A DNA stretch of 64,000 bases from Vibrio tapetis subsp. tapetis (GTDB lineage: Bacteria > Pseudomonadota > Gammaproteobacteria > Enterobacterales > Vibrionaceae): contig NZ_LT960612.1 in the NCBI RefSeq assembly GCF_900233005.1, positions 248,001-312,000 of the forward strand, given 5' to 3'. Below are positions 1-24,011 of the stretch, piece by piece. Position numbers and translations under genes: made by a program. The notes beneath the pieces were generated by a model that saw only the letters and a program-made list of their open reading frames with translations, did not search any database and was not told where the DNA came from. The stretch's first letter is position 1. The number at the start of each line of letters is the position of its first letter.

Positions 1-1826
1 TAACAGAACTGGTAATAATGTGCGCCACCAGCATTAGAAAAAGCATGGTTGAAATCGACGTCCCCTTTCCACACCGAAGACGCCGGGTAAATATCGAGTG
101 CTTCGTCAAGATAATCATCACATTGATCAGTCACCGATTTAAATATCGGATCATTTTGATACAGGTAACGCCCCATGCCTTTCCATTGCGCTCCCTGACC
201 AGTAAAGGCAAGAACCAATCGACTTGCGCCTTGCTTTAATACGCCATCAGTTAACGACGCTGTAAGCTCTTGCCAGTTATGCCCCACTGCCGCGGTACGA
301 TAGTTAAAATGATGTCGATTCCACATCAACGCGTTGCTTGCGGCACGCAGCTCAGATTGGTTTGGTCTATTTTCTGTCAGCCAAGTTTGCCACGAAGCAA
401 CTTGTTCGATTAATGACGCTTCACTTGTGCCACTAAACGTTAATAGGCTGGTATCTTGAGGCTCAATCTGTTGGGGCTGATCATCGGCTTTCAAGCGCGG
501 CGCTTGTTCTAAAATAAGGTGTGCGTTGGTGCCACCAAAACCAAGTGAGCTGATCGCTGCCCGTCGAACATCACACTCCGGCCATGTAAGCAAAGTTTTT
601 GGTAATGCAAAGTGAAACGCGTCAAGGTTCAAAGTAGGATTAGACTCGGTATTGCCTGCATTGGGTGCAATTTTTCCATGGTAAAGAGACAGCACCGTTT
701 TAATAAAACCAGCAATGCCCGCTCCTGCGTTGGCATGACCTATGTTGCTTTTTACAGCACCAAGGTATTTCGTGGACTGTGAATCCCCGTACACTTTACT
801 CAGAGCGCGAACTTCTATTTCATCGCCAAGTTGAGTCCCGGTTCCGTGTGTTTCAATGAATTGAATTTGAGCAGGCAACAGATCTGCCAACTGCAAAGCT
901 TTGTTCATCACGGCAGACTGCCCCTCAACACCAGGAGCCATAAAGTCCATCTTGGCTCGCCCATCATTATTAATTCCAGCACCACGAATCACAGCCCAAA
1001 TATGGTCACCATCATCAACGGCATCTTCCACGCGCTTTAACACTACCGTAGCCACCGCATTGCCATTCAAGGTGCCCGAAGCATCTTGGCTAAACGGTGA
1101 ACACTGCCCATCTTGAGACAAAATACTGCCTTGCTGACGAACGTAACCGACCTCTTGAGGTAAAGTTAACGCTGCCCCACCCGCAATCATCAAATCCGCT
1201 TGATAAGTCTGAAGCTGTAAGCAGGCGTTCGCGATAGCAACCAATGAGCTTGAACACGCCGTCTGAACGGTCAATGCTGGTCCAGTTAAGTTAAGTTTGT
1301 AGGCTGCCCAGGTCGCTAAAAAGTCATTACTGTTACCAGTTAGCACTTGCAATGCTTTGGCATGATGGTTTGCATCCAAATGTGCGGTAACCGTTTCCCC
1401 TAAATAACCGTTCGGATTACTGCAAGCGATGACCCCAGCGTTCAGAGTATTAAGCTTCATTGGGTTATAGCCCGCGTGCTCTATTCCTTTCCAACACGCT
1501 TGAAGGAATCGACGACATTGAGGATCCATTGTCTCTGCCTGTACTGCCGTCATTTCAAAAGCACGGGCATCAAACTGGTCTACATCTTCAATGGGCATTG
1601 ACCACGGAACATAATTTTCATCATGAGTTTTCTGTGCGGGCATACCTATTTTCGTCGCGTTGTCGGGAGAGGTATAACGCCCAGCGCTTTTTCCAGATTT
1701 TAAGAGAGACCAGAACTCATCAATGTTTTTACAGCCAGAAAATTCGCCTGACATACCGATAACGGCAACTGCCCCCAAATCGGATAAGATACTGATGTCC
1801 GCTTGAGCCTTTTTAAAATTTTCCAT
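1..1826 (-). CDS. Type I polyketide synthase, KS-AT start (partial, runs off left edge)
   Basis: This is the first 608 residues of a modular polyketide synthase, translated by eye from the minus strand. A ketosynthase fills about residues 17-440. Its active-site Cys sits in TVQTACSSSL (C191), with HGTGT near residue 325 and SNIGHANAGAG near 360, so the Cys-His-His triad is intact. An acyltransferase begins near residue 537 (AFTGQGAQWKGMGRYL), but its GHS active site lies beyond the edge. Extender specificity therefore cannot be read. The ATG overlaps the upstream NRPS stop (TAATG), so the two are translationally coupled. The PKS should accept the chain from the C-AL-KR-PCP protein and extend it by a two-carbon unit. 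Later domains, including any thioesterase, are outside the window. Family call is secure; substrate is unknown. Confidence 0.93.
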   Translation of the reverse strand, partial: MENFKKAQADISILSDLGAVAVIGMSGEFSGCKNIDEFWSLLKSGKSAGRYTSPDNATKIGMPAQKTHDENYVPWSMPIEDVDQFDARAFEMTAVQAETMDPQCRRFLQACWKGIEHAGYNPMKLNTLNAGVIACSNPNGYLGETVTAHLDANHHAKALQVLTGNSNDFLATWAAYKLNLTGPALTVQTACSSSLVAIANACLQLQTYQADLMIAGGAALTLPQEVGYVRQQGSILSQDGQCSPFSQDASGTLNGNAVATVVLKRVEDAVDDGDHIWAVIRGAGINNDGRAKMDFMAPGVEGQSAVMNKALQLADLLPAQIQFIETHGTGTQLGDEIEVRALSKVYGDSQSTKYLGAVKSNIGHANAGAGIAGFIKTVLSLYHGKIAPNAGNTESNPTLNLDAFHFALPKTLLTWPECDVRRAAISSLGFGGTNAHLILEQAPRLKADDQPQQIEPQDTSLLTFSGTSEASLIEQVASWQTWLTENRPNQSELRAASNALMWNRHHFNYRTAAVGHNWQELTASLTDGVLKQGASRLVLAFTGQGAQWKGMGRYLYQNDPIFKSVTDQCDDYLDEALDIYPASSVWKGDVDFNHAFSNAGGAHYYQFC

Positions 1827-4800
1827 TATTTATTCATCCGTCGCTTAAATCGCTCTTTGACTGACGCATTACGCACCGCGCGATTATCTTTTTCGAGTGG
1901 TTCATTTGGCGTAGTCGCCTCTTGCGGGGTGAGCCTAGTCAACATCAATGTCATTGACTGCAAGGTAGGCGCTGAGAAAAGATCCGCCATCATGACGTTT
2001 TGATATCCCAATTCCTTTTCGATAAGATGCTGAAGCTTGTAGAGCAAAATCGAGCTCCCCCCTAACTCAAAAAAGCTCTGGTTAGCTGGAATATCATTAC
2101 GCCCGAGTAGCTCCTGCCAAACCTTACGCAACGATGCTAGACTCGTTTTATTGATCCCCCCAGCCTCTGAAGGACTTAACTCAACGGTAGGTTGTACTTC
2201 GCCGTTTTTTTCTTTTGTTCCAATCAGGTAATCACCCGATGGAAGAGCAAGGAGGCTAGACAACATGTTCATGCAATCCTTAGCTTGAAGACTTTGTAAT
2301 CCAGCCTGTTTCAGCGCCGTAGTGTCCACTTCACCGACTGACATCCCAGTGTCTTCCCACGCACTCCAACCCAACCAAGAAGCTGATAATCCCTGCTCCC
2401 TAAGTCTTTCAACAGCGCTTCGTGTTGCCGCTTGTGACAAGTTGTAAGAAAGGCTTTGATGTCCCCCACGCACACCATTTAACGAACCAAACACAAGCCA
2501 TTGAATTGATTCAGAATTAATGTAACCGCGTAACAAAGAGACCAACTTTATCAAGCCTCCTTCGTTTACCGCTTTGACCTCTGAAAGTGTGGTCAGATCC
2601 AAATCATCGATGGAATCACGATGAAATTGCGCGGCCAAGTGATAAACACGTCGAGGAGCCTGCTTTAATTGCGGCGCATCGGTTCGACGCTCCTTCCAAT
2701 ACTCATCCAATGATCTCTCATCGGAAAAATCGGTACGAATCCATAGATACTGCCCTGTAAGTAATGTGTTGGTGATCTCTGGCTTGGAGCGAGAAAGCAG
2801 CACAACAAACTCACCTTGATTCACAAGTTCTTGAATAAGATGATGTGCTATGCCACCCGACGCCCCCGTTACCACTGAATAGGTGTCTGTTTTTAACGTC
2901 TGTGACTCGTTCACCTGCCGCCAATCCGTCATGAACTCGCGGTCTTCGAAACCATTCACGCCATCAAAATGAAGACGTTTGATCGTGGAATGTTTCGGCA
3001 ACGAATGAACATTCATAGGGGATTGACAGGTTACTATCTGGATCGACGTATCTATGGCCATCGACTGATATGCCTGCGCCCAAAGCTCCAGGACGGGTCC
3101 TAAAGCTCTCTCGGCTAACAGCACAAGTTGATTGATTCTTCCGTGATGAAGTGCTTGTTGAATCTCACCCTTACTACGTATTAGCAACTCAATGTCATTG
3201 GCCATCACTGCCACAACGGTTCTGTTCGAGCAGGCACGACCACCAACTAGATCAACCGTTGAAATTGGCGAAACACGTTCGATCTTTTGTTGAGGAATAG
3301 GAACAGGAAGTAGCCGAACCATCGCGATCGGGTTGTCATTTAACGCTTTTTCCAGGAGCCAGCGTTCAACCATTTTACGGCGCTGAATTTTTCCTGCGGT
3401 TGTTTTGAGAAAACCTCCATATTCAAGTATCACGAGTTCAGTCGGGTAAAATTGCAGTTTTTCACCCAACTGTCTGCGAATGCGATCTTCTAACTCATCC
3501 AAACTGCTTTGAGATGTTGCTACGTAAAATACGACCGCCGAATCCCCATGATCCTGATAGCCAACAGCAGCCACACAGGTTTCGTCAACACCATCAACCG
3601 AACCAACCAAGGCTTCAATATCATGGTTAAAGAAATTCATGCCATTAAGAACAATGCTCTCTTGCATCCTTCCGGTCAGATATAGCTCCCCCCCAGCGAT
3701 GACACCACAGTCCCCAGTATCAAACCAGCCATCTCCAACAAACGCCTTTTGATTCAATTCTGGCGATTCAAAGTACCCCATGGTGATTGAAGGACCACGC
3801 AGTTGCATTTTTCCCACTTCAAACTCTTTAACGACTTCATTGTGCTCATTCGCGATACGTATTTCGGTGTTGGCAACGGCCTTACCCAATGACACAAATT
3901 CGCTGTGCCCAATCTGGGTATATTCATCTTGGCTATCAATCGAATAACTAGGTAGTGAAAAAGCCTCACCTTGATTGATTGGTTTCGTCGAGATAACTGT
4001 GCACGACTCCGCCATACCAAAAGCAGGCGTTAAAACGTTCGACTTCAACCCCCATGGAGTAAATGCTTCAGTAAATCGGCGCACCGTTTCAGCGACCACC
4101 ATTTCACCGCCATTGATTAACTCTTTAAGTGAAGAAAGGTCATAACGTTGATTCGAGGATGTCGCTTCAGTGATCATCATTTTGTAAGCAAAGTTAGGGC
4201 ACCAACTGTGGGTCACTTTGCACTCTTCAACTAAAGCAAGCCATCGTAAAGGTGACTGGAGCACATAAGGGGTTGAAACATGCACTTGCTCGCATCCGAG
4301 GTAAGTATCACGCAGGTGCGTAAACAATAAGCCACCAACGTGATCAAATCCCATCCAATTCAGAGAGACATCCGTTGAACGTTGCTCTCGGGTTTGGGTG
4401 ATCAAATCGCAATATTCAACAATCGTTTGATGGCTTTGTTGAATGCACTTGCTTTTGCCCGTTGAACCGGACGAAAGCTGAATGATCCCAGGGCTATTCT
4501 CATCAATCGCACACTGGACGTAACTCTGTAGAGGCAAGTGGTTCGGAACCACAATCTGGACATCGTCTGTTTGTTTCAGCAAATCGGCAATAGCACCTTT
4601 TCCAGCCTCGCAACAGACGATCAACGCTTGATTGAGCTGAACAAACGCATCGTAGATTTTTGTTAAGCCTTCCTGCGTTTCCACTTGTGGTGCATTGATT
4701 GTGGCAGGTTGCCCCCCAGCTATGACCACCCCCCAAAAATTCACCAGATATTGTTGTAAATCTGCGGCAAGAACGATCACCGGACGCCCGGCATGAGACC

Positions 4801-6439
4801 AATTTTTCCCTTGTTGCAATTGCCCAGCCACTGTTTTGGCTTTTTGATAAAGTTGGGAATAAGTCAAAACACTCCGAGCCCCATCAACCGCTACGAAAGT
4901 GAGTAACTTATCTGGGTTAATTTGGGCCGTCTTTTCTAGCATTTCCGCTAGATTTTTCGGCAGATCCAACGGCTTTGGTAACTCAGCACCTTTCATCCAA
5001 GCTTGCTCAGGTTTTGGTTCAGACACCAACGAAAATTCGTTCAACGCATGCTCAAACCGCAAGAGTAAGGTATGAATCTCTGCTTCTTCATACCAATTTG
5101 GATCGTACTCCACGTTTATCGTCAATTGTCCGTTGATCGTCGCCATTTGTATCGACAGTGGCAGTTTGGCATAAGAGTTTTTCGCCGCCTCTAACGTGTG
5201 AGGAAGATCAGCATGTTCTTCGTCCCAATCGAAGCTTTGGTAGCCAATAACAACTTGTGTTAACGGATTATCATGGCCAGTTCGCTCATGTTGAACTGAA
5301 TTGACAATATGGCCAAAAGGGACTCCTTGATGAGCAATGCTCTCCAACCATTGCCCTTTAACTGATTCCATCAGCTGCTTAGCGGACGTAGTTAATAGGT
5401 GGTTTTGGGTAACGGGAACCACATTGTTGAAGTAGCCCAAACTGGATTCGATTTCGTTGTGACAATCACGATTTGCAACCGCAACCCCTAACACCATTCG
5501 GTTGCAACAATATTGACGTCCTAAGGCCAAAAACCACGCTGATAACAATGCATTAAATTGTTGGTGATGCTGAACGTGCTTTATCAAATCCATACCAATA
5601 CGGTGATCTACATGACCCGCTCGGCTGCTTTTGGGTGCTTTTCTTGTTAACCAATCATTCTGCATCGGTGCTGATGCGAGCAGAGTTTTCCAGTATTCGA
5701 GACTTTGCAGCCATTCACCTTGCCCACTAGCGTCACGTTGATACTGTGCAAAGCGATCTGAACCTGAGTGTTCTTGCACCTCGGTGGCATTTAAGTTCTG
5801 CCCGTAAGCGTGGCTTAACTGCTCGCGAAATAATGCGGAACTCCAACCATCCCAAACAATATGATGAACAATAATGACCAACCTGCTTGTTTGTTCCGTT
5901 TCAACAAAGAAAAACTGCCATAGAGGTGGCGAACTAAGATCAAACGGCGCTTGACTCACCTTTTTAAGCCAAGTGTCATAGTTTTTTTCTTGCAGCTCGA
6001 TCGATTCAAAAGGAACCTCATCGACTGCACGACGAAACATGACGACATCACCATCCTGACGCTCAAAACCACTGCGCAACGCGGGTTGCTTAGCCTGTAT
6101 AAATGCTAAGGCTTTTTTTAAACGTTCGATGTCAGGTTGTTGTTCAAAACACAGGGAAAAACACAAGTTATAACTCGCGTTAATCGAATCCTTTTGACAC
6201 AACAAATACATATTTTCTTGTGAGATAGAACATTGAGGTGTGCATTTGAGTGAAGCCTCGTCATTCGACACTGACGCTTTTAACAAGGTCACCAGTTGCG
6301 ATTTGTTTCCCTTCAAAAGATCAACTTCTTCACTGGTCAATGAACGCTGCGCTTCATAGCCCAGATTTCCATCATCAGTAATATGCAAAAAAATGCCTTC
6401 TGATCGCATTGATTGCAATAGTTTTAACGCGATTCCCAT
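1826..6439 (-). CDS. NRPS module: docking-C-AMP ligase-KR-PCP (1537 aa)
   Basis: An unusual elongation module. Residues 1-60 resemble a TubC-type N-terminal docking domain. A condensation domain follows with HHIVWDGWS near 195. The AMP-binding domain (about 490-1030) has LSSGSTGKSK near 656, but the region where amino-acid A domains carry Asp235 reads WMGFDHVGGLL, and it ends TTAGKIQRR. Those features resemble fatty-acyl or alpha-keto-acid ligases rather than amino-acid A domains. A ketoreductase follows: TGASGGI near 1192, with plausible catalytic Lys (EVKAVNEGG), Ser (FGSLNG) and Tyr (SYNLSQ). A PCP closes the protein (FFELGGSSIL near 1461). By analogy with A-KR-PCP modules of the aeruginosin type, it may load a keto acid and reduce it to a hydroxy acid; this is inference. 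It overlaps the genes on both sides by one base. Confidence 0.9.
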   Translation of the reverse strand: MGIALKLLQSMRSEGIFLHITDDGNLGYEAQRSLTSEEVDLLKGNKSQLVTLLKASVSNDEASLKCTPQCSISQENMYLLCQKDSINASYNLCFSLCFEQQPDIERLKKALAFIQAKQPALRSGFERQDGDVVMFRRAVDEVPFESIELQEKNYDTWLKKVSQAPFDLSSPPLWQFFFVETEQTSRLVIIVHHIVWDGWSSALFREQLSHAYGQNLNATEVQEHSGSDRFAQYQRDASGQGEWLQSLEYWKTLLASAPMQNDWLTRKAPKSSRAGHVDHRIGMDLIKHVQHHQQFNALLSAWFLALGRQYCCNRMVLGVAVANRDCHNEIESSLGYFNNVVPVTQNHLLTTSAKQLMESVKGQWLESIAHQGVPFGHIVNSVQHERTGHDNPLTQVVIGYQSFDWDEEHADLPHTLEAAKNSYAKLPLSIQMATINGQLTINVEYDPNWYEEAEIHTLLLRFEHALNEFSLVSEPKPEQAWMKGAELPKPLDLPKNLAEMLEKTAQINPDKLLTFVAVDGARSVLTYSQLYQKAKTVAGQLQQGKNWSHAGRPVIVLAADLQQYLVNFWGVVIAGGQPATINAPQVETQEGLTKIYDAFVQLNQALIVCCEAGKGAIADLLKQTDDVQIVVPNHLPLQSYVQCAIDENSPGIIQLSSGSTGKSKCIQQSHQTIVEYCDLITQTREQRSTDVSLNWMGFDHVGGLLFTHLRDTYLGCEQVHVSTPYVLQSPLRWLALVEECKVTHSWCPNFAYKMMITEATSSNQRYDLSSLKELINGGEMVVAETVRRFTEAFTPWGLKSNVLTPAFGMAESCTVISTKPINQGEAFSLPSYSIDSQDEYTQIGHSEFVSLGKAVANTEIRIANEHNEVVKEFEVGKMQLRGPSITMGYFESPELNQKAFVGDGWFDTGDCGVIAGGELYLTGRMQESIVLNGMNFFNHDIEALVGSVDGVDETCVAAVGYQDHGDSAVVFYVATSQSSLDELEDRIRRQLGEKLQFYPTELVILEYGGFLKTTAGKIQRRKMVERWLLEKALNDNPIAMVRLLPVPIPQQKIERVSPISTVDLVGGRACSNRTVVAVMANDIELLIRSKGEIQQALHHGRINQLVLLAERALGPVLELWAQAYQSMAIDTSIQIVTCQSPMNVHSLPKHSTIKRLHFDGVNGFEDREFMTDWRQVNESQTLKTDTYSVVTGASGGIAHHLIQELVNQGEFVVLLSRSKPEITNTLLTGQYLWIRTDFSDERSLDEYWKERRTDAPQLKQAPRRVYHLAAQFHRDSIDDLDLTTLSEVKAVNEGGLIKLVSLLRGYINSESIQWLVFGSLNGVRGGHQSLSYNLSQAATRSAVERLREQGLSASWLGWSAWEDTGMSVGEVDTTALKQAGLQSLQAKDCMNMLSSLLALPSGDYLIGTKEKNGEVQPTVELSPSEAGGINKTSLASLRKVWQELLGRNDIPANQSFFELGGSSILLYKLQHLIEKELGYQNVMMADLFSAPTLQSMTLMLTRLTPQEATTPNEPLEKDNRAVRNASVKERFKRRMNK

Positions 6440-9400
6440 TAGATAATACCTGTTTCTTTAATGCTTGATTTGACGAGATTTGTCGTCGTAAGCGTCTCGA
6501 TTAATTGGGCCATTTCGCTGAGCACAAGCGAGTCGTAAACCAGACCTAAGCGAAGTGATAACCCAAAGGTTTTATTCAATGCATTTGTTAGCGAGTTCAC
6601 CAGCAGAGAGTGGCCTCCCATGTCAAAGAAATGACTTTCTGGATCTTGTGGGTAGATACCTGTCAGCGCCTGCCAAATTTGAGCAATGTCATGTTCGCTT
6701 TTAGTCATTGCTCGCGCATCTACAGGTAAATTAGGGCGTTGCTTAAGGCAATCTGCGGCCGCCTTTAAATCGACTTTTCCCGTTGCTAGCAATGGCATTG
6801 TAGTCACGCCATGCCAAACTTGAGGGCGCATATATCGAGGTAAAAATTGTTCGGCAATACCTTGAAGTGACGTTGCACTTACGCTTTCAGGTGTATAGAT
6901 AACGCCAATACGATGCTCATCCACCATAACCACAGCCAGCTGTGTAACGGCCTCGTGCTGAACAAGGGTTTCCTTTATTTCTGCAAGGGAGACCCTCTGG
7001 CCTCTAATTTTCACTAACTGCTGCTGGCGTCCAACAAATACAACTTCGGTCGTTTCAAGATTCGCATCACCACAGTGAAATTGGGCCATATCTCCAGTTG
7101 CAAACGTCGCTTCTCCAAGTGAATTTTGAGGAAACGCGTTTTCATTGAGATAACCAGAAATGACCTGACGACCAGTAACCGATAACTCACCTTTACCACC
7201 GTGAGGTGTTAGAGCTCCCCAATTGTCGCGTAGAGAAACAGTAGTATTGAGCAGCGGCTGACCCAAAGTAACGTAAGTTCCACTTGACTCTATGCGACAC
7301 GCGAGTACATCAGCCGCCACTTCTGCGCTGCCATATACATTCCATAACTCAATATGAGGCCACAAGGTCAGTACGCGATCAGCCAAGGCCTGCGATAAGG
7401 TTTCACCACTGAGGGTCCAGTACTTAAGAGTCTGATAACACTTGTTAGACTCAGGGTCATTAAGACGGTGTTCGACCAATGTTTCCATCAGTGATGGCAC
7501 CATAACCAAACGTGTGATTTGATATTTTTCAAGGCAGTCCGCGAATGCTTCAGGCGAACACTGCGCCTGAGTTGGAATAACCGCAAGAGGAACGCCTTTA
7601 AGAAGTGGAGTAAATATCTCTGCGATAGAATCAACAAAGCTGATCGATGTTTTCAGTGCAGAGATTTCTCCAGCAACGTAAGGCATATTCTGCCAAGTCC
7701 ATGAGAATCTATTCAGTGCACCCATTTCCGTTGCCGCAACGGCTTTAGGTGTCCCCGTTGACCCAGACGTAAACGTCACATAGAGGAAAGGTTTGTTGGC
7801 CTGCGGATGAACGGTGGTCACCAAGTTTCTCTGGCTCTTAACATCCGTAGAGTCAAGATATGGCGCACCTATATCAAATGTATTACAACCTAAGACCAAC
7901 TCACATTGCGCAATCTCTACCATTTGTTTTAAGCGACCTTCAGGCAGAGTTCTTGCCAGCGGTACATAACACGCAGAAAGCTTGACGATGGCGAGCAATG
8001 ACACCAACAACTCTTCCCCAAGATCAAGGTGAACACCGACTCTTGTTTGATAACCAACACCAACAAACGCTAACTGACGCGCTAATGTCTCTGCTTTGTC
8101 ATTCAATTGTTCAAATGTGCACGTAACACCGTCATCAAAAAAAGCTGGCGCTTTAGGGGTAGCTTCAACCACTTGTTGCCATACTTCGTAGATGCTGCTG
8201 TCCACAATTGGCGTTAACGGCCCTTGCAATACCCCATGTTGATTGTGTGAGTTGTAACAAAGGGCACTTAATTGGCATGAAGGGCGAGCAATCATTTGCT
8301 TCAACACCCCCTGATATTGATCCAATAACTGACGCATACTCGATGCCGTAAATAACCCCTTTCTGAACACCAGATTAATTCGTCCTTCGCCTTTTCCTAG
8401 CTGAACATTCATTTCTAGTTCATTGGAAATCGCAGCCTGTTCCGTGGGCTTAATCACACACCCCAGCTCTCCTTCAAGAGTATTTGAATTGTCTAAAACA
8501 AAGCTGATCTGATAAATAGGATGACGACTTCCATCACCTCCAGCAGCCATCTCACTGACCACTCGTTCAAACGGAACATTTGAGTGCTTCATCGCTGAGA
8601 GTAATGTTTTAGTTTGCTCGGTAATGAGTTGCTCAACACTCCAATCCCCATTCAAACGTTGACGAACCACAATGTTATTCAGGAATAGTCCGGGAATTGA
8701 CTGCATTTGAGCGGTTGGTCGATTGGCAACATGCGTCCCAATGACAACATCATCCTGAGCGAGATATCGGCTAATTAAGAGTTGAAATGCAGCCATCATC
8801 ACAGCGAATTCCGTGGTGCTGTGCTTTTCTGAAAAACCTCGTAAAGACTCAACCATAGAAGCATCCAGTGACAATGCCTCCGTCTGGGCCGTAAAATCTA
8901 TATGTTGAGGATCAAGCTGTGTAGGCAATAACGCCGAGTCTTGAAAGTCCTCTAGCTGTGAACGCCAAAAATCGAGTTCCCCATCAACACCATTCTGCGC
9001 AGATTCCCACTCACAATAGTTGAAATAATCCGCACGTTGAGTGACTAGCAACCCTTCATCGCGGTAGCAGTCTTGCCATGCCTTCAACAGAATTTGCAAA
9101 GACCAACCATCGAACAACACGTGGTGTACGGTCAACAACAACTCACAGTGCCCTTCTTCATGATTGACCAGCAAAGCACCCCAACCCTTTCCGCTGGACA
9201 AATCCAACATTTCAGAAGCCTGCTCTTGACTAAGCTTGTCAATTTCCACTTCATTTAACGGCAGACTCTCTAACACAACGCGCGGGGTATTGGCAGTACG
9301 CACCCATTGACCATTCACCAATTTCGACTGAAACACATCAAACAGGGACAGGGTTTTCTCTAACGCACTTTTTAACCGTTCTGCTTCACAATCACGTCCT

Positions 9401-15109: not shown

Positions 15110-15167
15110 GTGAGATGTCCCAATAATGTTTTAAAAGATCATCAGGTTAAACAAATATTACCCAAAT

Positions 15168-15186
15168 GCTAATGATATCCATTATC
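15168..15186. promoter_or_regulatory. Fur box, NRPS/MATE divergent promoter
   Basis: GCTAATGATATCCATTATC matches the consensus GATAATGATAATCATTATC at 16 of 19 positions, counted by eye. It sits 59 bases upstream of the NRPS GTG and 105 bases upstream of the MATE ATG, so one Fur dimer pair could repress both directions when iron is plentiful. Confidence 0.82.
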
Positions 15187-15290
15187 AAATCCGTAGGGTG
15201 AATATATTGCTCCGCATAATGACAAAAACATTGTTTCCCACATGCCACAATACCGAAATCGAGCAACATAACTTAACCATGGATTAATAC

Positions 15291-16646
15291 ATGAACAAGA
15301 AAACACCGATTTATAAAGAGATAATCAAACTCTCTTTACCACTAATGTTTATCCAAATATGCCAAGCTTCACTAGGACTCGTCGACACCCTTCTCGCCGG
15401 ACAATACCATTACAAGGATCTCGCAGCGGTGGGACTGGCTAGTAACATATGGACTCCTATCGCCATTCTTATTACGGGCATTATGTACGCGTTGGTCCCG
15501 AAGTTTTCAGCGGCAGATGCTAAACAAGATAATGCAGCTTGCGCGAAATTGTTGGCTATGGGTAAACGTAATGCCGCGGCGCTGTCTGTGATTGGATTCA
15601 TTGCATTACAGCTTTGTGCCTTCTCAGCCCCCTATATCATCTCTGATCAGGAGGTCGCAAAAATAAGTCAAAACTATCTTCACGCTGTTGCCTTCGCCGT
15701 ACCCGGTCTTACTTATATGATTCTTTATCGATTTTTCAATGAAGGTCGGGGAAAAATGCTACCGATTGCAGTTACTGGGGCTCTACTGTTGATGCTCAAT
15801 AGCGTTCTCAATATTGTTCTTGTTAATGGTTATCTAGGGTTACCAGAACTCGGAGGATTAGGTTGTGGGGTAGCAACGGCAATCACGACGTATTGTGCTC
15901 TTATTTGTCTATTCGCCCTTTCCAGAAAGTCACTTAAATCCACAACTCATCAACATATCCACTTTGAGAACTCGGAAGCAAGAAACTTAATGCTAGAGGG
16001 CTTACCGATCGGCATTGCGCTCATCCTAGAAGTATTGGCACTGACTGCGTTAGCTTTCTTTGCTTCGGCACTTGGCACCAAAGTGATCGCTGCACATCAA
16101 GTCGCCATAAATATTGCTATGGTCGTATTCATGATTCCGGTAGCAATAAGCAGTGCCGCGACCATTCAGGTATCCAAATATAGGGGAATGACTTTGCCAT
16201 TGGAATCTAAACGTTCTGGTATCGCAGCTCTCACCATAGCAACCCTATATGGAGGGATCATGACGGTACTCATTTTAGTGTTTGGTAATCAAATCGCACC
16301 TTGGTTTAGCGATGATCCAGAAGTAACAACGCTCATTTCGAGCCTGATTATTTTCATTGCGATGTTTCAGCTCGTCGACGCAATACAAATGGTCGCCGCA
16401 GGTATCTTACGTGGCCTAGAAGAATTTGTGCGACCTCTAGTGACGGTGTTGTTTGTCTATTGGATTGTCATTATACCTATCAGTTATTTAATTGGAGTCA
16501 AAGGTTGGCTAGTTGACCAACCTAACATCGAACATATCTGGCTCTTGCTCACCTGTGGACTTACCTTTGCTGCGTTGTTGTTAGGTACTCAAAGCTACCT
16601 TCAGTTAACAAAAAATGTACACAAATCCGAGCTAGCAAGCGCATAG
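15291..16646 (+). CDS. MATE-family efflux transporter (451 aa)
   Basis: A polytopic inner-membrane protein of normal MATE length with about twelve hydrophobic segments in two similar halves. The N-terminal segment reads IIKLSLPLMFIQICQASLGL and the second half contains ALGTKVIAAHQVAINIA, both typical of the family. Members exchange Na+ or H+ for organic cations and drugs. Transcribed divergently from the NRPS operon across a shared Fur box, it is well placed to export the finished siderophore, as MFS or RND pumps do in other systems; that role is inference. A weak GGA lies upstream of the ATG. It is followed by a bidirectional terminator shared with the AraC gene. Confidence 0.87.
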   Translation: MNKKTPIYKEIIKLSLPLMFIQICQASLGLVDTLLAGQYHYKDLAAVGLASNIWTPIAILITGIMYALVPKFSAADAKQDNAACAKLLAMGKRNAAALSVIGFIALQLCAFSAPYIISDQEVAKISQNYLHAVAFAVPGLTYMILYRFFNEGRGKMLPIAVTGALLLMLNSVLNIVLVNGYLGLPELGGLGCGVATAITTYCALICLFALSRKSLKSTTHQHIHFENSEARNLMLEGLPIGIALILEVLALTALAFFASALGTKVIAAHQVAINIAMVVFMIPVAISSAATIQVSKYRGMTLPLESKRSGIAALTIATLYGGIMTVLILVFGNQIAPWFSDDPEVTTLISSLIIFIAMFQLVDAIQMVAAGILRGLEEFVRPLVTVLFVYWIVIIPISYLIGVKGWLVDQPNIEHIWLLLTCGLTFAALLLGTQSYLQLTKNVHKSELASA

Positions 16647-16679
16647 AAAAAAGGCTCAAGCAATGCTTGAGCCTTTTTT
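16647..16679. terminator. Bidirectional rho-independent terminator
   Basis: GGCTCAAGC and GCTTGAGCC flank a three-base AAT loop, with A-run on the left and T-run on the right. It separates the convergent MATE and AraC genes; the AraC stop codon overlaps the T-run. Confidence 0.93.
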
Positions 16680-17641
16680 TACCCTACGTGAACCGATTTT
16701 CGTCGGTAATGTTTTGGGCTACACATGTACTGCTCTTTAAACTTTTTTGAAAAGTGTCCTACGTGTTTAAATCCAACAATATGCGCCACTTCCTGAACGG
16801 AGAGATCACCCACAGCCAAGAGTTCTCCAGCCTTAGCCATGCGCTTATTGGATAAAAACCCATACACAGTATCTCCGAAGACCATCTTAAAATTTTTCTT
16901 CAGTTTGTTGTCGTTAATACCAATTTGGCGGGACAGCTCGATTAATGATGGAGGCGAGTCCATACGCTCTTCCATAATTCGAGCCGCTAGCTGAATACAA
17001 TCCATGTCTCGCGGCGTCATTCCACAACATATATTTACCTCTCGGTGCATGTTGTGATAAATAAGGGCAAGCAGTTCCAACACTTTACCTTGCAAATAAA
17101 GAATGTTGGCGGTTTTTCCTAGTTTAGAACGAAAGATTTCATCTACGTTCTTGACAATATCAGAGGTCACTTGAACAGACTCAAATCGATTAATTTCAAA
17201 ATGTGCACCCGAACCATCTTCAAATAACGACTCCATCATTGCCTTGGGAACACAGAAGTTTATAAACTTCACTCGAGATGTATCGTAACGAAACTCCAAT
17301 TCCCCTTCGTGACAAACAAAAAACAGCGCCTTATCTTTATCTATAATTATCGATTCTTTCTCACCTGATACTAATACCTCAACCTCTCCTTCAATTGCGA
17401 GGCATGCTCCAAAGTAGTCCTGCGCAACCTCTTTAAAGCTAGTAGGGCTATTAAAAGTAACGTCACTGTAGGTGATATTTAGGCCAGGAGCTAATTCAAC
17501 AATGTAACCATGACCTAAACATACATTTTCATCGAGCTCGACTTTTGTTGTTGCATAATCCGCAAGTCGATTTTCGCCGCCCCCTTCAAACCCTTCACAC
17601 ATTTTAAAAGCAGACTGAACGTTACTTTTTACATAGGCCAT
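16679..17641 (-). CDS. AraC-family transcriptional regulator of the metallophore locus (320 aa)
   Basis: The C-terminal 100 residues form a two-helix-turn-helix AraC domain: LIELSRQIGINDNKLKKNF and then VQEVAHIVGFKHVGHFSKKF, ending SPKHYRRK. The N-terminal 200 residues are a ligand-sensing region with a cupin-like beta-rich stretch (CLAIEGEVEVLVSGEK). Length and layout match YbtA and PchR, which bind the iron-loaded siderophore and activate receptor and synthesis genes. It lies beside the ABC transporter genes but has its own 130-base leader containing a Fur box, so it is probably a separate transcription unit that is iron-repressed. Its target sites are not obvious, though the palindrome at 23557-23594 is a candidate region. 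Function as the cognate siderophore sensor is inferred from context. Confidence 0.88.
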   Translation of the reverse strand: MAYVKSNVQSAFKMCEGFEGGGENRLADYATTKVELDENVCLGHGYIVELAPGLNITYSDVTFNSPTSFKEVAQDYFGACLAIEGEVEVLVSGEKESIIIDKDKALFFVCHEGELEFRYDTSRVKFINFCVPKAMMESLFEDGSGAHFEINRFESVQVTSDIVKNVDEIFRSKLGKTANILYLQGKVLELLALIYHNMHREVNICCGMTPRDMDCIQLAARIMEERMDSPPSLIELSRQIGINDNKLKKNFKMVFGDTVYGFLSNKRMAKAGELLAVGDLSVQEVAHIVGFKHVGHFSKKFKEQYMCSPKHYRRKSVHVG

Positions 17642-17691
17642 GATTACATCTCTTAGCTTTTATTCTCTAGTGAGTAGCCCTTGAAAATACT

Positions 17692-17710
17692 ACAAATGAT
17701 AATTATTATC
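17692..17710. promoter_or_regulatory. Fur box upstream of the AraC-type regulator
   Basis: ACAAATGATAATTATTATC matches the 19-base Fur consensus at 15 positions and contains the palindromic core GATAATTATTATC. It lies 51 bases upstream of the regulator ATG and downstream of the ABC gene stop, so it should control the regulator. Confidence 0.82.
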
Positions 17711-17770
17711 AATTGGGTTAATAGTTGTACAAATGTTAGAATCGAGAGATAAGCTTATAAAAACAATATG

Positions 17771-19492
17771 TTAAGCAACCCAGCCTTGCGATTCTAACTG
17801 GTCATTCCACAGTGTTTTATATACATTGGACGATTTCATCAACTGCTTATGGGTACCAATCGCTTCTATATTGCCATTAGCCAAGACAACTATCTGATCA
17901 GCATGGACCACATTCAACAGATTATGAGCCACGACGATCACTGTTTTGTCTTTCACTAAAGAGGAAATAGCTCCTTGTACAAGCATTTCATTATTCGCAT
18001 CCAAAGCCGAAGTCGCCTCATCAAGTAGAACAATAGGTGCACATTTTATCAGCGCTCTGGCGATAGAAATTCGTTGTTTTTCACCACCAGAAAGTCTCGT
18101 CCCTCCCTCACCGACAATCGTTTGTAATCCTTCCGGAAAACGATGAATGAACTCCCAACATTGAGCTTGACGACAAACCATCTCCAATTTTGATGATGAA
18201 ATTTCTTGTCCCATCACCAAATTGTTATAGATAGTATCGTCAAAAAGGTAAACCTCTTGAAAAACCATACTAATATGTTCAGAGATCTCGGTTTGACTCA
18301 TGTTTTTTACATTCTTTCCGCCAATAGTGATGGTGCCTTCATCCGTGTCCCAAAAACGAGCAAGCAAACTCATCATTGTTGATTTACCTGATCCCGACGG
18401 TCCTACTATCGCCGTTACAGAGCGCTCAGGAAAAGTAACATTCATACGATTGAAAAACGGTGCATCTTGATAACTAAAGTGCACATTATTGAAACTCACT
18501 TCATGACCTTCGTTTTTCAGTACAGTCTCAGTCTCTTCCTCCAGTTCTTCTTGCTCTAATACCCCTTCAATACGAGACATAGAAATCTTAAAATATTGAA
18601 ATTGAGTCAGTAAAATGGCAAGTTGCGTGAGAGGGCGATAGAATTGCATTGAGACAAGTAAGAATAACAAAAAAACAGTAATTGGAAGCGTTTCTGTCCC
18701 GATAAAATAAAGACCAAACATGATCAAGCTGGCAAAACCTGACTCAGAAAAAATAATGAATGCGGCTGGGGCTAAACTCGCTCTCATTTCATATTTTAGA
18801 TGAGCGTCTCGTGCACTTTTCATTTTGTCGTCAAGTTCGAGGAACTCTCCATCAGCTTGCCCATGCGCTCTAAGTACTCGTATTCCCATAATGTACTCAA
18901 AGATTGCGCTACTTAATTTGTCTGCGGTTCGAAACAGTTTACTTTTCCCCTGTTGACTTAAACGAGACAAAACCACGAACATAACGATCGCTATAGGAAA
19001 ACCGATCAGCATGCTCAACGCTAAACGCCAGTCAAATATGAATAGACCAACCATTAACAATACAAGAACACAGGCAATTCCGAGCACATAACTAATAACG
19101 TGAGATAATGTATGCTCTGTAAACTCAACATCTTTTAATAAAGTATTATTGAGCTTTCCTAAATCCATAGAGAGTAATGAACCTAATGGAATGTGAGTGA
19201 GCTTTCTCATCATATCTTTACGCATTTTGTAACCGGAACGACTACTAAATTCACTGTGCGTAGTGAACGTCATTTTCACTGCGATCAGCCGGGCGACCAA
19301 ACAAACAACAATTAAACCACAATAAAAAAAGAGGTTGTTTATAGATGGCGTTGGAGCCAACATTTCGGTAAGGATAAAGAACACACAAAAATTCGGAATA
19401 ATCATTGTTACCGCATCAGCTATCGTTACGGCTATATTTTTCCCAATCGTTGCCATCGAGCAACCAGATAAACGCATTATTTGATCAAGCAC
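17771..19492 (-). CDS. ABC half-transporter, YbtP/YbtQ-like (573 aa)
   Basis: An exporter-fold half-transporter: six membrane segments in residues 1-310, then a nucleotide-binding domain with GPSGSGKST (Walker A), LSGGEKQRISIARAL (signature), IVLLDEATSALD (Walker B and D-loop) and VIVVAHNL (H-loop). Its partner is the adjacent 591-residue protein, whose stop it overlaps by eight bases. The start is GTG, supported by GAGGAA seven bases upstream within the previous gene. Such pairs beside an AraC regulator and a FyuA-like receptor are YbtP/YbtQ in yersiniabactin loci (IrtA/IrtB in mycobacteria), where they import the ferric siderophore across the inner membrane despite the exporter fold. Import here is an inference; export cannot be excluded from sequence. 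Confidence 0.9.
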   Translation of the reverse strand: MLDQIMRLSGCSMATIGKNIAVTIADAVTMIIPNFCVFFILTEMLAPTPSINNLFFYCGLIVVCLVARLIAVKMTFTTHSEFSSRSGYKMRKDMMRKLTHIPLGSLLSMDLGKLNNTLLKDVEFTEHTLSHVISYVLGIACVLVLLMVGLFIFDWRLALSMLIGFPIAIVMFVVLSRLSQQGKSKLFRTADKLSSAIFEYIMGIRVLRAHGQADGEFLELDDKMKSARDAHLKYEMRASLAPAAFIIFSESGFASLIMFGLYFIGTETLPITVFLLFLLVSMQFYRPLTQLAILLTQFQYFKISMSRIEGVLEQEELEEETETVLKNEGHEVSFNNVHFSYQDAPFFNRMNVTFPERSVTAIVGPSGSGKSTMMSLLARFWDTDEGTITIGGKNVKNMSQTEISEHISMVFQEVYLFDDTIYNNLVMGQEISSSKLEMVCRQAQCWEFIHRFPEGLQTIVGEGGTRLSGGEKQRISIARALIKCAPIVLLDEATSALDANNEMLVQGAISSLVKDKTVIVVAHNLLNVVHADQIVVLANGNIEAIGTHKQLMKSSNVYKTLWNDQLESQGWVA

Positions 19493-21260
19493 AATTCATT
19501 TCCTCATTCTTTGCTTTGTTGGTCACTGACCACTTTTGAGCATTTTGGCTGGTACGCCACATTGAACCATATAAGCCATTAAGTGCGATCAATTCATCAT
19601 GCGTCCCTTTCTCAATAAGCTTCCCTTCGTCTATAACGAGGATCTGGTCTGCCCGCTGAATCGTGACCAGACGATGAGCAATAATGATCACTGTTTTTCC
19701 TATCATCAGTTTGTTCAAGGCGCTTTGAATAAGCTTTTGATTTGTAGCATCGGAATGAGAGGTCGGCTCATCCAAAATTATGATTGGTGCATCTTTCAAT
19801 ATCGCGCGTGCAATGGATAGCCTTTGTTTTTGACCACCACTAAGTCGTGTATCTTTGCCGATCACGGTGTCATACCCATCAGGAAGCTTACAAATAAAAT
19901 CATGAGCATTTGCCGATTTTGCTGCCGCTACAATCGCCTCTGTTGAATAATATTTACCCATCGAAAGGTTATTCGATACCGACTGAGTAAATACAAAAGG
20001 GTCTTGGTAAACCATTGCTATGGCATCCATACGCTTCTCTTCAGACATCTGTGATAAAGCGACCCCGCCAATAAGAATTTCGCCTCCAGTCAACGGCCAG
20101 AAACCTGCTAACAAAGAAGCCAACGTGGTTTTCCCTGCCCCAGAAGGACCAACGATAGCAGTAAGACTTCCGGAAGGTAACGTGAAGCTAACATCATTGA
20201 TCGCCTTGCGTTGCTGCTCTTCATAGCAAAAGTCGACATTTTTAAACTCTATGTCATGCCGATGTATTTCGGATTGACTCGCAATGCCTTCCATTTCCGG
20301 TAAATTGGCTATTCTTATTAAACGCGCAACACCTTCAAATACTTGCCCAAGATAGGTACTTAATAACGTGAGATTAAACAGCGGCTCTAACATACCCACA
20401 CCAAGCAAGATGCACAGTAGAAAGCTAGAGATACTTAACGAACCCTGAGCCCAAAAATACAAGCCGAAAGGCACCAGAAAGACAAGCCCAGAACTAAGAA
20501 CGATTTTAAATAAAGCAAACGGCCAACCCGCACTTTTAGTCCATGATTCAATATAGTTCTTATGGTGTTGTATATCATTGTCTAGCTGGCTATAAGAGTG
20601 CTCACCAATACCAAATAAACGCACAACGGGCATAGCTTTAATAAATTCAGTCACAGAGCTGTTTAGTTTTTCAACGGACTCATGATATTGCTCAGCCTTC
20701 GACTTATAGTCCTTAAACAGCACAGCCTGACATAGAATAGCTAACGGAATTGGTACTAATGCGATCAGCGCCATTCTAGTGTCAATCACCAATAACAAAA
20801 TAAAAGTCGCCAATGGGATAATAAAAGAGGACACCAAATCAGGGAGTTGATGTGCAATAAATACCTCGATCCGATCGATATCTTCCGTCAGATTCTTTTT
20901 CAGCTCTCCACTGTTTGTTTGACTAAAAAAGCCGAGTCTTATTTTTGAAAGGCGATTTATTACCGAGAGCCTAATATTATATTGAATATGAAAAGCGCAA
21001 TGATGGGACAAATAAACTGACATCAATAGAGATACGTAACGTGCAACCATGATGGTAAACGCAATAACCGATAGCGACCAAAGCTGGTCCCAACCTGCGC
21101 CCACTAACAGTTTATCGACAATTAAATAAACAACATAATAAGGTCCAAGGGCAAGAACAGCAGCGGTCAACGAAAATAGAACCGCTAACCAAAGCATCCA
21201 CTGTTGTACCTTACATTGATTGAGCAACCATTTTAAAGGGTGAGAATCTGTTTGTTGCAT
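19485..21260 (-). CDS. ABC half-transporter, YbtP/YbtQ-like (591 aa)
   Basis: The second half-transporter of the pair. The membrane domain covers about residues 15-300 and the nucleotide-binding domain has GPSGAGKTT, LSGGQKQRLSIARAI, IIILDEPTS and VIIIAHRL. Its D-loop reads SHSDATN in place of the usual SALD, so the two ATP sites of the heterodimer may not be equal, as in many YbtPQ/IrtAB-type pairs. I chose ATG 21260 because AAGGAT lies upstream; a longer frame reaches 21302 but would begin inside the terminator hairpin that follows the receptor gene. It lies between the receptor and the other half-transporter. Likely role: inner-membrane uptake of the ferric siderophore. Confidence 0.9.
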   Translation of the reverse strand: MQQTDSHPLKWLLNQCKVQQWMLWLAVLFSLTAAVLALGPYYVVYLIVDKLLVGAGWDQLWSLSVIAFTIMVARYVSLLMSVYLSHHCAFHIQYNIRLSVINRLSKIRLGFFSQTNSGELKKNLTEDIDRIEVFIAHQLPDLVSSFIIPLATFILLLVIDTRMALIALVPIPLAILCQAVLFKDYKSKAEQYHESVEKLNSSVTEFIKAMPVVRLFGIGEHSYSQLDNDIQHHKNYIESWTKSAGWPFALFKIVLSSGLVFLVPFGLYFWAQGSLSISSFLLCILLGVGMLEPLFNLTLLSTYLGQVFEGVARLIRIANLPEMEGIASQSEIHRHDIEFKNVDFCYEEQQRKAINDVSFTLPSGSLTAIVGPSGAGKTTLASLLAGFWPLTGGEILIGGVALSQMSEEKRMDAIAMVYQDPFVFTQSVSNNLSMGKYYSTEAIVAAAKSANAHDFICKLPDGYDTVIGKDTRLSGGQKQRLSIARAILKDAPIIILDEPTSHSDATNQKLIQSALNKLMIGKTVIIIAHRLVTIQRADQILVIDEGKLIEKGTHDELIALNGLYGSMWRTSQNAQKWSVTNKAKNEEMNCA

Positions 21261-21281
21261 AATAAATCCTTTTTTAAACGC

Positions 21282-21308
21282 AAAAAAGGCAGCACATTGC
21301 ATGCTGCC
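21282..21308 (-). terminator. Rho-independent terminator/attenuator after the receptor gene
   Basis: On the minus strand GGCAGCA and TGCTGCC close a seven-base loop and are followed by six T. It lies between the TonB receptor stop and the ABC start, so transporter transcription depends on read-through or on a separate promoter. Confidence 0.85.
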
Positions 21309-21347
21309 TGAAATGAAATGAGCGAATGCATGCTCAAAGTTGCTTAG

Positions 21348-23414
21348 TTAGAATTTTGCCTCTAAATCCAACCCAAACCTTAATGGTTCTCCGTAAGTAC
21401 TGTACGAGCCAAAAGAGAAAGTTTGATAACGTTCATCGGTTAAATTAGCCCCCCATAAACGGACCGAGTAATTGTCACGATATGAAAAATCAAGATTGGC
21501 GTTGACAACAAAGTACGGTTCTTGGAATTTTTCGCCTCGCCCATCTTGAGCCACTTTTCCGAAATACCCCATGCTCATCGTAGGCGTAAAGCTCCAATCA
21601 TCGTTGATATCAGCGAAGTATGTCGTTTCAACGTGAACATTGTGATCTGGCGCATACGGCACTCGATTGCCTTCGGCCATACTTGCCCCGGTATAACCGT
21701 CCACTTTAGTGATCTTTGCATCATTAAAACCAAACCTTAGGGCAGCTTGCCAAGCGTCGGTCAATAATGCAGAGACAGCCCCTTCAATTCCCCGAGAACG
21801 AACTTCTTGTATACTTGCAATACGAGTATTACCACCGGCATCTGGGTAAGCGTATTGAAAATTTTCTACTCGAGCATCAAATAGATTGATATTGGTCATT
21901 ACCGAACGATCAAGCCAATAACTTTTATAACCAACTTCAAAGACTTTACTTGTTTCCGGAGCATAAGTTTTCCCGTAACCCAATCGTTCTCCAGAAGAGG
22001 TAGTTTCCTCATACATCCAACTGCCACCACCACTCAAAAGCCCTTCCCCATAACTTGTATAGACCGTGTGATCTCGCCCGAAATCTTTTGATAAAGCGGC
22101 TTTTGGCATGAACTTCGAATAGTCCGTGTTATAGTTACCCTGAGTCACCGATGGCTTTGAAAAAGAAGAATCTATATCATAATTCTCTTTTGTATAGCGT
22201 CCACCTAGATTAAGTGACCATGTGGGTGCAAAGCGCCAATTTGCATCAACGTAAGCGGTATAACTATCTCGGCTAAAATTACCTCTCGTTTTCGTCAACG
22301 CCGTATTAGACACTTTCATTGCAAATTGTTGATTATTATCTTCCGTTACTTTGTAATATGCTGCGCCGAAAATCCAATCGATAGGTAGCTCGCTAGGTGT
22401 TGATACGAGCCTAAGCTCTTGAAAATAATCTTTTTCCCTTATCCATGTATCGATCAACGTTGATGTGGCATCCGGTGTAACGGCTAGATCAGCATCAAAC
22501 CTACCGAAAGAACTGATGTTTCGATATCCAGAAACAGAGCTTAATGTCCATTGACGGGAAATATTCCAATCTAAGCTTATCGCGGCGCCCTTTGACGTTT
22601 GGTCAAAGAGGCCTTCTACATCAAATGCAGTCTTAAGATCGTCACCACGGCTTGGTTTTGATGTCTCAGGCACATATGGGTACGCACCTCCTTTAGTTTC
22701 ACCATAATCCATATACAACGTTGCCGACCAATCCTCATTCGGGGTCCAATATAAACTTATCGCTATATTGTTTTGTTTTTTATCATCAACAGGCTTGTCT
22801 AAATGTGTGTTATAAACAAAACCATCACGTTGTAAGTGATTGACGGCGATTTTTGCACTCAACTCATCTTCAATTAGTGGACTTGACGCTAAGACCTGAG
22901 CACTCTTTTCATTGTAGTTAGCGGCACCAAGCTTCACTCTGGCCGTTGGTTCATTAGCAGGCTTTTTCGTCGTAATGACAATAATGCCATCTCGGGCATT
23001 GCTACCATATATATTGCCCTGAGGTCCCCTTAGGAATTCGATAGATTCAACATCTACCAATGATAAATTCAATCCATACAAGCTAGTTTGCGGCACGCCA
23101 TCGACATAAATAGGCACGTTAGCTTGCTCTAAATTTCTTGGTAGGCCTCGAACTTGAACATAATTGTAGTCCCCTGCAATATCAGATAATGACATGTTTG
23201 GGATCGACTTTATTGCATCGGAAACGGTCCGATATCGTTGTGTCTCCATATCTTCTGACGTTAGAGAATCCATACTCTGTGGAATGTCTTTAATATCTTT
23301 CCCTACTCGGGCTGCTTGCACGATCATCGTCTCATCGACGTTATCATTTGCAACCACAGGTAAAGTTCCCAGAAGCGCAGCAATCGCGGTTCCTACCACT
23401 GTTAAATTATTCAT
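21348..23414 (-). CDS. TonB-dependent outer-membrane siderophore receptor, FyuA-like (688 aa)
   Basis: A signal peptide of about 22 residues (cleavage near VVA-ND) is followed by a TonB box-like ETMIVQAAR. The plug domain has IPNMSLSDIAGDYNYVQVRG, YVDGVPQTSLYG and VESIEFLRGPQGNIYG. The rest is a 22-strand-type barrel ending in an aromatic C-terminus (RFGLDLEAKF). Length and the phrases YVDGVPQ and LRGPQG resemble the yersiniabactin receptor FyuA. It imports the ferric siderophore across the outer membrane with TonB energy. It heads the uptake gene group, with a terminator before the first ABC gene. A weak Fur-box match lies upstream. The siderophore is presumably the product of the adjacent NRPS/PKS. 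Confidence 0.92.
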   Translation of the reverse strand: MNNLTVVGTAIAALLGTLPVVANDNVDETMIVQAARVGKDIKDIPQSMDSLTSEDMETQRYRTVSDAIKSIPNMSLSDIAGDYNYVQVRGLPRNLEQANVPIYVDGVPQTSLYGLNLSLVDVESIEFLRGPQGNIYGSNARDGIIVITTKKPANEPTARVKLGAANYNEKSAQVLASSPLIEDELSAKIAVNHLQRDGFVYNTHLDKPVDDKKQNNIAISLYWTPNEDWSATLYMDYGETKGGAYPYVPETSKPSRGDDLKTAFDVEGLFDQTSKGAAISLDWNISRQWTLSSVSGYRNISSFGRFDADLAVTPDATSTLIDTWIREKDYFQELRLVSTPSELPIDWIFGAAYYKVTEDNNQQFAMKVSNTALTKTRGNFSRDSYTAYVDANWRFAPTWSLNLGGRYTKENYDIDSSFSKPSVTQGNYNTDYSKFMPKAALSKDFGRDHTVYTSYGEGLLSGGGSWMYEETTSSGERLGYGKTYAPETSKVFEVGYKSYWLDRSVMTNINLFDARVENFQYAYPDAGGNTRIASIQEVRSRGIEGAVSALLTDAWQAALRFGFNDAKITKVDGYTGASMAEGNRVPYAPDHNVHVETTYFADINDDWSFTPTMSMGYFGKVAQDGRGEKFQEPYFVVNANLDFSYRDNYSVRLWGANLTDERYQTFSFGSYSTYGEPLRFGLDLEAKF

Positions 23415-23454
23415 TTAATAAATCTCTACCACTTAATCCATAACCACCCAAATA

Positions 23455-23473
23455 CTAAATGAAAACTATTCTC
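23455..23473. promoter_or_regulatory. Possible weak Fur box upstream of receptor
   Basis: CTAAATGAAAACTATTCTC matches the Fur consensus at about 12 of 19 positions. It lies 41 bases upstream of the receptor ATG, where such a site is expected, but the score is marginal. Confidence 0.4.
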
Positions 23474-23556
23474 GTTAAAACGCAACGAACATCATTGAAA
23501 GGAGCAATTCAATCACTGTAAGGATTAGAGATAGATAAACGAGATCTAAGAGCGTC

Positions 23557-23594
23557 GTACTAAATGAGTTCCTTATTTAAAACTCATTTAGTAC
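23557..23594. repeat. Perfect 14-bp inverted repeat upstream of receptor
   Basis: GTACTAAATGAGTT and AACTCATTTAGTAC flank ten bases (23571-23580). No T-run follows on either strand, so it is not an ordinary terminator. It could be an operator or the structure of a small RNA. Confidence 0.75.

Positions 23595-23936: not shown

Positions 23937-24011
<75 letters not shown>

Follow-up and report, generated by a model that had tools for sequence, protein, structure and literature searches.

A candidate non-aromatic metallophore locus of Vibrio tapetis with thiazoline, beta-alanine and keto-acid modules, and the occurrence of its uptake genes without synthesis genes

A hybrid non-ribosomal peptide synthetase-polyketide synthase (NRPS-PKS) locus of about 46 kb in Vibrio tapetis subsp. 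tapetis is predicted to make and recover a non-aromatic metallophore whose metal is most likely iron(III), a reading to which we give a probability of about 0.84. The source genome comprises 5.73 Mb in three contigs, and the stretch analysed here, referred to as the window, is the 64,000 nucleotides (nt) from 248001 to 312000 of the 1.86-Mb contig NZ_LT960612.1 (C2). The locus occupies C2:225447-271414, so that positions 1-23414 of the window are its right half; it appears to stop at base 1 because the window ends there. The original prediction, made from the window, had noted a missing left end. This left half was obtained by reading C2:215001-251000 of the source genome (negative coordinates denote bases left of window position 1 on the same contig) and it contains a second Cy-Cys module, beta-amino-acid and PKS modules and a reductive release domain. 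The earlier suggestion of a metal-chelating thiazoline peptide-polyketide finds support in the sequence features set out below, and its claim that the system is undescribed stands in so far as no description of the locus was found in the open-licence library searched. The module order is apparently undescribed as well.

Module order and predicted chemistry

Nine modules are predicted across the complete locus, and, provided that they act in colinear order, they would be A-T for a hydrophobic amino acid (module 1), Cy-A-T for Cys (2), C-A-T for beta-alanine (3), C-A-KR-T for an alpha-keto acid (4), KS-AT-ACP (5), a further Cy-A-T for Cys (6), C-A-T for a beta-amino acid (7), KS and then AT-ACP in separate genes (8) and C-A-T-TD with reductive release (9). 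The corresponding genes, all on the minus strand and assigned from domain scans, motifs and A-domain codes, encode the starter A-PCP protein (12803-15109), whose N-terminal ~170 amino acids (aa) match no Pfam family; a TubC_N docking domain followed by Cy, A and PCP, for the first thiazoline (9549-12815); C-A-PCP (6439-9552); C-A-KR-PCP, predicted to activate and reduce a keto acid (1826-6439; Pfam Condensation, AMP-binding, KR and PP-binding); a KS-AT-ACP PKS module of 985 aa (-1131 to 1826, that is C2:246869-249826, with 1-1826 in the window; Pfam ketoacyl-synt, Acyl_transf_1 and PP-binding); the second Cy-A-T (-4349 to -1128); the second C-A-T (-7585 to -4352); KS (-10291 to -9149); AT-ACP (-12174 to -10456); and C, A and A-T-TD pieces between -12158 and -16395. 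The biosynthetic genes overlap or directly adjoin one another, in agreement with the coupled operon originally proposed, and every part named at that time (A-PCP, Cy-A-PCP, C-A-PCP, C-AMP ligase-KR-PCP and KS-AT proteins, MATE exporter, AraC regulator, ABC pair and TonB receptor) is present. Accessory genes comprise a PanP-like decarboxylase, the MATE, AraC, YbtPQ-like and TonB receptor genes and an MMPL/LolA-like set, and six of the seven condensation-type domains detected in the genome belong to the locus.

The proposal of thiazoline rings is borne out by motifs and codes. Both A domains whose codes we take to be Cys-like (DMFNFGVLW and DMFNIGVVW) sit after Cy domains carrying the DxxxxD motif (DCWCID and DLWCID), as in the Cy-A(Cys)-PCP modules of yersiniabactin and piscibactin type, and the two codes are unchanged wherever the module occurs among the relatives (5/5 and 4/4 sequences). 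The codes of the starter (DALFMGCIF) and of the last module (DALFGGLIF) presumably specify hydrophobic amino acids; VDAVTSVAD, with its VDxxxSxAD pattern, we take to be of beta-alanine type, and VDWYYTLDI of another beta-amino-acid type. The beta-alanine-type code is retained in 5/5 sequences with at most three changes, and codes other than those for Cys vary by at most four positions between relatives, most of all in the Osedax symbiont described below.

A beta-alanine-like module, also foreseen in the original prediction, is suggested both by this code and by the pyridoxal phosphate-dependent decarboxylase encoded within the cluster (-9152 to -7602, minus strand). Against TIGR03799 (PanP) this protein scores 447 bits, under the cut-off of 606 bits. 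It was found in all six genomes or records searched, with identities of 95, 84, 76, 58 and 50% to the copy described here, and four of the six have a separate PanP at 38-39%, none being listed at that level in the Osedax symbiont or the Halomonas plasmid. In an unrooted tree of 13 sequences, the six cluster copies stand apart from four housekeeping PanP proteins and three sequences of another genus (support 99). A threshold search with the decarboxylase returned 1 of 369 genomes of the class and 20 of 394 of the order, own genome included, and does not map the cluster because 19 of the 20 order matches belong to one other genus, at 44-47% identity. This cluster-specific PanP-like enzyme probably makes beta-alanine from aspartate.

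The third unusual element is the keto-acid-like module. Its A domain is nearest to StsA in the PDB (6ulw, 277 bits; 6ulx, 272), with McyG (4r0m, 271) almost equal, and the keto-acid reading is favoured because a KR lies behind it; StsA we take to be an A-KR-T keto-acid enzyme. The nucleotide motif, Ser1319 and Tyr1332 of this KR are invariant in a ten-sequence alignment, the lysine being a majority residue only, so that an StsA-like A domain followed by a KR with catalytic residues, the arrangement of a keto-acid (depsipeptide) module, is present by sequence. As in StsA the A domain is followed by KR and PCP, whereas here the unit is preceded by a C domain, is followed by a PKS module and forms part of a metallophore-type line. 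A reading of the code of this A domain was dropped, since two alignments put its residues at different places.

No KR, DH or ER family of Pfam was matched in the KS-AT-ACP or the second PKS module, and the AT motifs (GHSLG; HGFHS and QAYHS) are, by the rule that we assume, more malonyl- than methylmalonyl-like. The terminal thioester reductase domain (TD) scores 248.5 bits with TIGR01746 (cut-off 213.35) and keeps its short-chain dehydrogenase/reductase motifs in 12/12 aligned sequences; in this assembly the gene is broken upstream of it. The first 190 residues of the starter protein (mean fold pLDDT 61.5, best Foldseek E 0.043, several weak condensation-domain matches) are perhaps a vestigial condensation domain, and a search with this region gave four proteins including its own. 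Taken in colinear order, the modules would build a chain of hydrophobic amino acid, thiazoline, beta-alanine, ester-linked alpha-hydroxy acid, unreduced C2 ketide, thiazoline, beta-amino acid, unreduced C2 ketide and hydrophobic amino acid, which the TD would release as an aldehyde, perhaps with later cyclisation: a pyrrolinone could form by ring closure of a beta-ketoacyl amino aldehyde, or a cyclic imine by reaction of the aldehyde with the starter amine.

Fur boxes, transport genes and the choice of metal

Which features tie this assembly line to metal acquisition? On the right side lie a MATE exporter gene (15291-16646, plus strand; PF01554, and TIGR00797 above its cut-off) and, on the minus strand, an AraC-family regulator (16679-17641; PF12833), two ABC half-transporters and a TonB-dependent siderophore receptor (21348-23414; PF00593 and PF07715). 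The best single-half PDB match of the first half-transporter (17771-19492) is YbtQ (8vsi_B, 274 bits), and that of the second (19485-21302) is 6p6i_A (337 bits), the partner chain of YbtQ, which we take to be YbtP, followed by IrtA; NCBIfam places both nearest to MsbA, below its cut-off. By similarity the two would form a YbtP/YbtQ-type importer pair. The YbtPQ/FyuA-type uptake of the original prediction holds by sequence for the half-transporters; the receptor is only a remote FyuA relative. On the left, on the minus strand, the locus continues with the MMPL gene, a LolA-like gene and a gene for a 392-aa protein that matches no Pfam family (beyond -16395, down to -20900), followed by a type II thioesterase (-21811 to -21014) and an Sfp-type phosphopantetheinyl transferase (-22553 to -21777). 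The predicted fold of the 392-aa protein (mean pLDDT 40.7) is mostly strands, and calling it barrel-like is a guess.

A scan of a 97-kb composite gave five Fur-like sites scoring at least 15/19, against 0.17 expected from six first-order Markov simulations. Two of them, in line with the Fur boxes noted originally, lie within promoters inside the window: the divergent MATE/A-PCP promoter (15168-15186, 16/19) and that upstream of the AraC gene (17692-17710, 15/19). Together with a third, at -16526 before the MMPL gene, they recur at the matching promoters of Vibrio sp. Of7-15, V. ouci and Aliivibrio with scores of 14-16/19, and the first two also have counterparts on the plasmid of Pseudoalteromonas sp. 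KG3. The site at -9932 is within the KS coding sequence and has a counterpart at the equivalent position of the Of7-15 gene, a recurrence that is coding conservation; the fifth, at 34331, is outside the locus. At 13/19, about 21 chance matches are expected per 97 kb. Fur sites combined with TonB/ABC uptake genes in one locus correspond, by sequence, to the general pattern of NRPS metallophore loci. In the mechanism that we propose, Fur would repress the locus when iron suffices and the AraC protein would adjust its expression, the MATE protein would probably export the product, and the TonB receptor with the YbtPQ-like pair, probably joined by the MMPL/LolA-like set, would handle its recovery. 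That the MMPL set is kept in an uptake-only genome (G146, below) argues that it serves uptake or handling, not export alone.

A zincophore, a chalkophore or a broad metallophore in place of an iron siderophore is in our view unlikely. Lusichelins and fatuamide A, also thiazoline peptide-polyketides, are reported to bind copper or several metals (PMC12210259, PMC11877528). On the other side, Fur-type sites were sought and found, sites of other metal regulators not having been sought. In those reports, lusichelins, fatuamide A and leptochelins appear, like the product proposed here, as marine thiazoline NRPS-PKS metallophores, but as phenolate, salicylate-capped cyanobacterial ones.

By sequence, the locus resembles yersiniabactin-type systems in uptake and regulation and differs from them in salicylate and release. 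Shared with yersiniabactin and piscibactin (Irp/Ybt) loci are Cy-A(Cys) modules, the hybrid NRPS-PKS line, an AraC regulator, a YbtPQ-type pair, a TonB receptor, Fur boxes and a type II thioesterase. In contrast to them, it starts with an amino acid, includes beta-alanine and keto-acid modules, lacks reducing domains in both of its PKS modules, ends in a TD in place of a thioesterase and has a receptor only 25% identical to FrpA. It departs from the salicylate-based type because no salicylate synthase gene lies in the locus; the four matches to PF00425 (chorismate-binding) in the genome are all outside it, and no stand-alone aryl-acid ligase is among the scanned open reading frames (ORFs) of the locus. 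One of these chorismate-binding genes (C2:1417943-1422731), about 1.15 Mb from the present locus, is near the seventh NRPS condensation domain of the genome, and the two possibly belong to another siderophore locus, of catechol or phenolate type.

Related loci with and without the biosynthetic block

A genome scan with the C-A-KR-T protein gave 334 related stretches and 79 retained loci, and the surroundings were read for the best four of the 79. By gene content, all four hold the locus: Vibrio sp. Of7-15, V. ouci BEI176, the Aliivibrio metagenome-assembled genome NORP241 and the Osedax symbiont Rs1. V. caribbeanicus and Vibrio sp. M260112 were named by protein searches. Among 100 sampled genomes, own included, a full-length match to this protein occurs only in the own genome, the next matches (E 2e-55 and weaker) being to the A domain alone or to ordinary NRPSs. 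The Cy-A-PCP and C-A-PCP proteins (9549-12815 and 6439-9552) are fused as one gene in Of7-15, V. ouci and Aliivibrio. The Osedax form is shorter, without KS-AT-ACP and the next Cy-A-T and C-A-T, and has an ORF of an IS66-type transposase within the first Cy gene (3073-4689 of the symbiont sequence read); a receptor was not seen on its 48.8-kb contig. A related, rearranged line is found on the 98-kb plasmid pHaKG2_1 (CP098529.1) of Halomonas sp. KG2 from a Vermont cheese rind. It carries the Cys-like, beta-alanine-like and keto-acid-KR triad twice and shares with the present locus the decarboxylase, KS-AT-ACP, phosphopantetheinyl transferase, thioesterase-type hydrolase, MATE, receptor and ABC pair. 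In contrast, the MMPL set and TD were not seen in the 43 kb read there and the receptor is 23% identical; its module order is incomplete, the first ORF being cut at the record end. This cluster, too, had no description in the open-licence library searched.

Orthologues of the receptor, with at least about 59% identity, are present in 6 of 227 Vibrio genomes, own included. Among the other five, V. ouci matches C-A-KR-T at E <=1e-20 and four do not, and no synthetase gene of the cluster was found in the 20-40 kb read around the receptors of these four. In one of them, G146 (C2:533407-544834 of that genome), the receptor, YbtP, YbtQ, AraC, MMPL, LolA-like and 403-aa genes are contiguous: both flanks of the locus are there, without the biosynthetic block and the MATE gene, and the junction matches only the DNA of the AraC end and that upstream of MMPL. 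The other three (G161, G241 and G048) have receptor-YbtP-YbtQ-AraC at ~60, 50, 48 and 61% identity, respectively, by gene, the G048 receptor being split. Pseudoalteromonas sp. KG3, likewise from Vermont cheese rind, carries receptor-YbtP-YbtQ-AraC-MATE on a plasmid of 184 kb (NZ_CP098525.1; 20001-28769 of the stretch read). After these genes come a remnant of the starter gene (74% over 139 aligned aa) and IS3 elements, with many insertion sequences around; no C-A-KR-T protein was found within the 42 kb of this plasmid that were read. A tree of eight taxa built from four genes joins KG3 and G146 as sisters (support 98; the two are 94% identical) and, with G161 and G241 as outgroup, places them among the producers.

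The simplest reading of this distribution is a loss of synthesis together with a transfer of the uptake set between genera, and the uptake-only bacteria apparently use a compound made by others. A shared metallophore is supported because the uptake genes occur without the tested synthetase genes; the compound would be a public good, taken up by some bacteria that lack the genes for its synthesis. Receptor-only carriage in Vibrio is already described for piscibactin (PMC5812596); the phenomenon is therefore known, and its occurrence for the present system is, as far as we found, apparently undescribed. The same distribution bears on a rival reading, in which a thiazoline peptide aldehyde or cyclic imine would act mainly as a cytotoxin or antibiotic and the TonB/ABC genes would serve re-uptake, signalling or immunity. 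Reductive release by the TD, and a starter that takes an amino acid and has no acylating domain, do recall aldehyde- or imine-forming NRPSs, and MATE and MMPL transporters are present; we nevertheless hold this very unlikely in view of the three Fur boxes at conserved positions, the siderophore-type receptor with its YbtPQ-like pair and the retention of uptake genes without synthesis genes, which fits scavenging.

Going one step further with the metallophore reading, we propose a new class built on a thiazoline/beta-alanyl/alpha-hydroxyacyl tri-module, in which thiazoline nitrogen and unreduced beta-keto or hydroxy oxygen would bind the metal and the end would be released by reduction and possibly cyclised. 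The uptake cassette would have passed without synthesis between Vibrio and Pseudoalteromonas, once onto a cheese-rind plasmid, making it a producer/pirate system. We give this fuller proposal an even chance.

With regard to the borders of the locus, a search for flanks shared with three producers gave only short or weak matches outside the cluster among the first 15 listed for each, and chemotaxis-type genes accounted for the longest. Genes for tRNAs stand on both sides, tRNA-Gly at 23937-24011 and tRNA-Leu and tRNA-Cys to the left; tRNA-targeted integration was considered and is not supported, there being no exact 13-base word common to the borders -26500 to -22200 and 23415 to 24200. Farther right, the window carries Tad/Flp pilus-type genes (50607-62493: a T2SSF pair, RcpC/CpaB, a prepilin peptidase, a Tad/VWA protein and OmpA).

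Counter-evidence, gene breaks and implications

Several observations weigh against the metallophore reading. The predicted product has no hydroxamate, catechol, phenolate or beta-hydroxyaspartate group, and its ligand set is a guess because none of these usual chelating groups is predicted. McyG is nearly as close as StsA to the keto-acid domain. The receptor scores highest in the PDB with FyuA (4epa, 75 bits), just ahead of the enantio-pyochelin receptor (72), and is no closer to FrpA than to several unrelated receptors; its score with TIGR01783 is 168 bits, under the cut-off of 223.5. No Fur-like site of at least 13/19 was found just upstream of the receptor gene, and an isochorismatase-fold gene, from a broad family, is found some 5.5 kb beyond the left end of the locus (-28598 to -28059). 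Finally, the last-module gene is in three ORFs here, whereas Of7-15, V. ouci and Aliivibrio each have it as one (1425-1435 aa), and the KS gene of this assembly lacks its tail.

Because of these last two changes the strain may not produce the compound. One explanation is that the locus is decaying and the organism is turning into a receptor-only user of a compound from its relatives. Besides the divided C-A-T-TD gene and the missing KS tail, the end of the 392-aa protein is altered and Cy-A-T and C-A-T are split; the receptor, ABC, AraC and MATE genes are meanwhile full length, and related loci without synthesis exist. The Cy-A-T/C-A-T split could, however, be a natural gene boundary, and genes outside the locus seem to be broken too: the DUF3360 gene (24226-25756) is divided into two overlapping ORFs, being mostly a single ORF of ~485-560 aa in relatives, and an OprB porin gene (31559-32679) is perhaps also split, the second of its two overlapping ORFs matching the C-terminal part. 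These breaks make an assembly error plausible and, in our judgement, at least as likely as decay, which we consider rather doubtful. A check of homopolymers was uninformative: short A/T runs are near three of the five cluster breaks, yet there are 480 runs of at least five bases per 97 kb.

If the metallophore reading is true, this locus would represent a metallophore family without the usual aromatic, hydroxamate or beta-hydroxyaspartate chelating groups, and the nine-module prediction is explicit enough to steer mass spectrometry. The close loci with and without the biosynthetic block would then amount to a natural experiment on the loss of a public good and the use of a foreign siderophore, in Vibrio and in cheese-rind Pseudoalteromonas.

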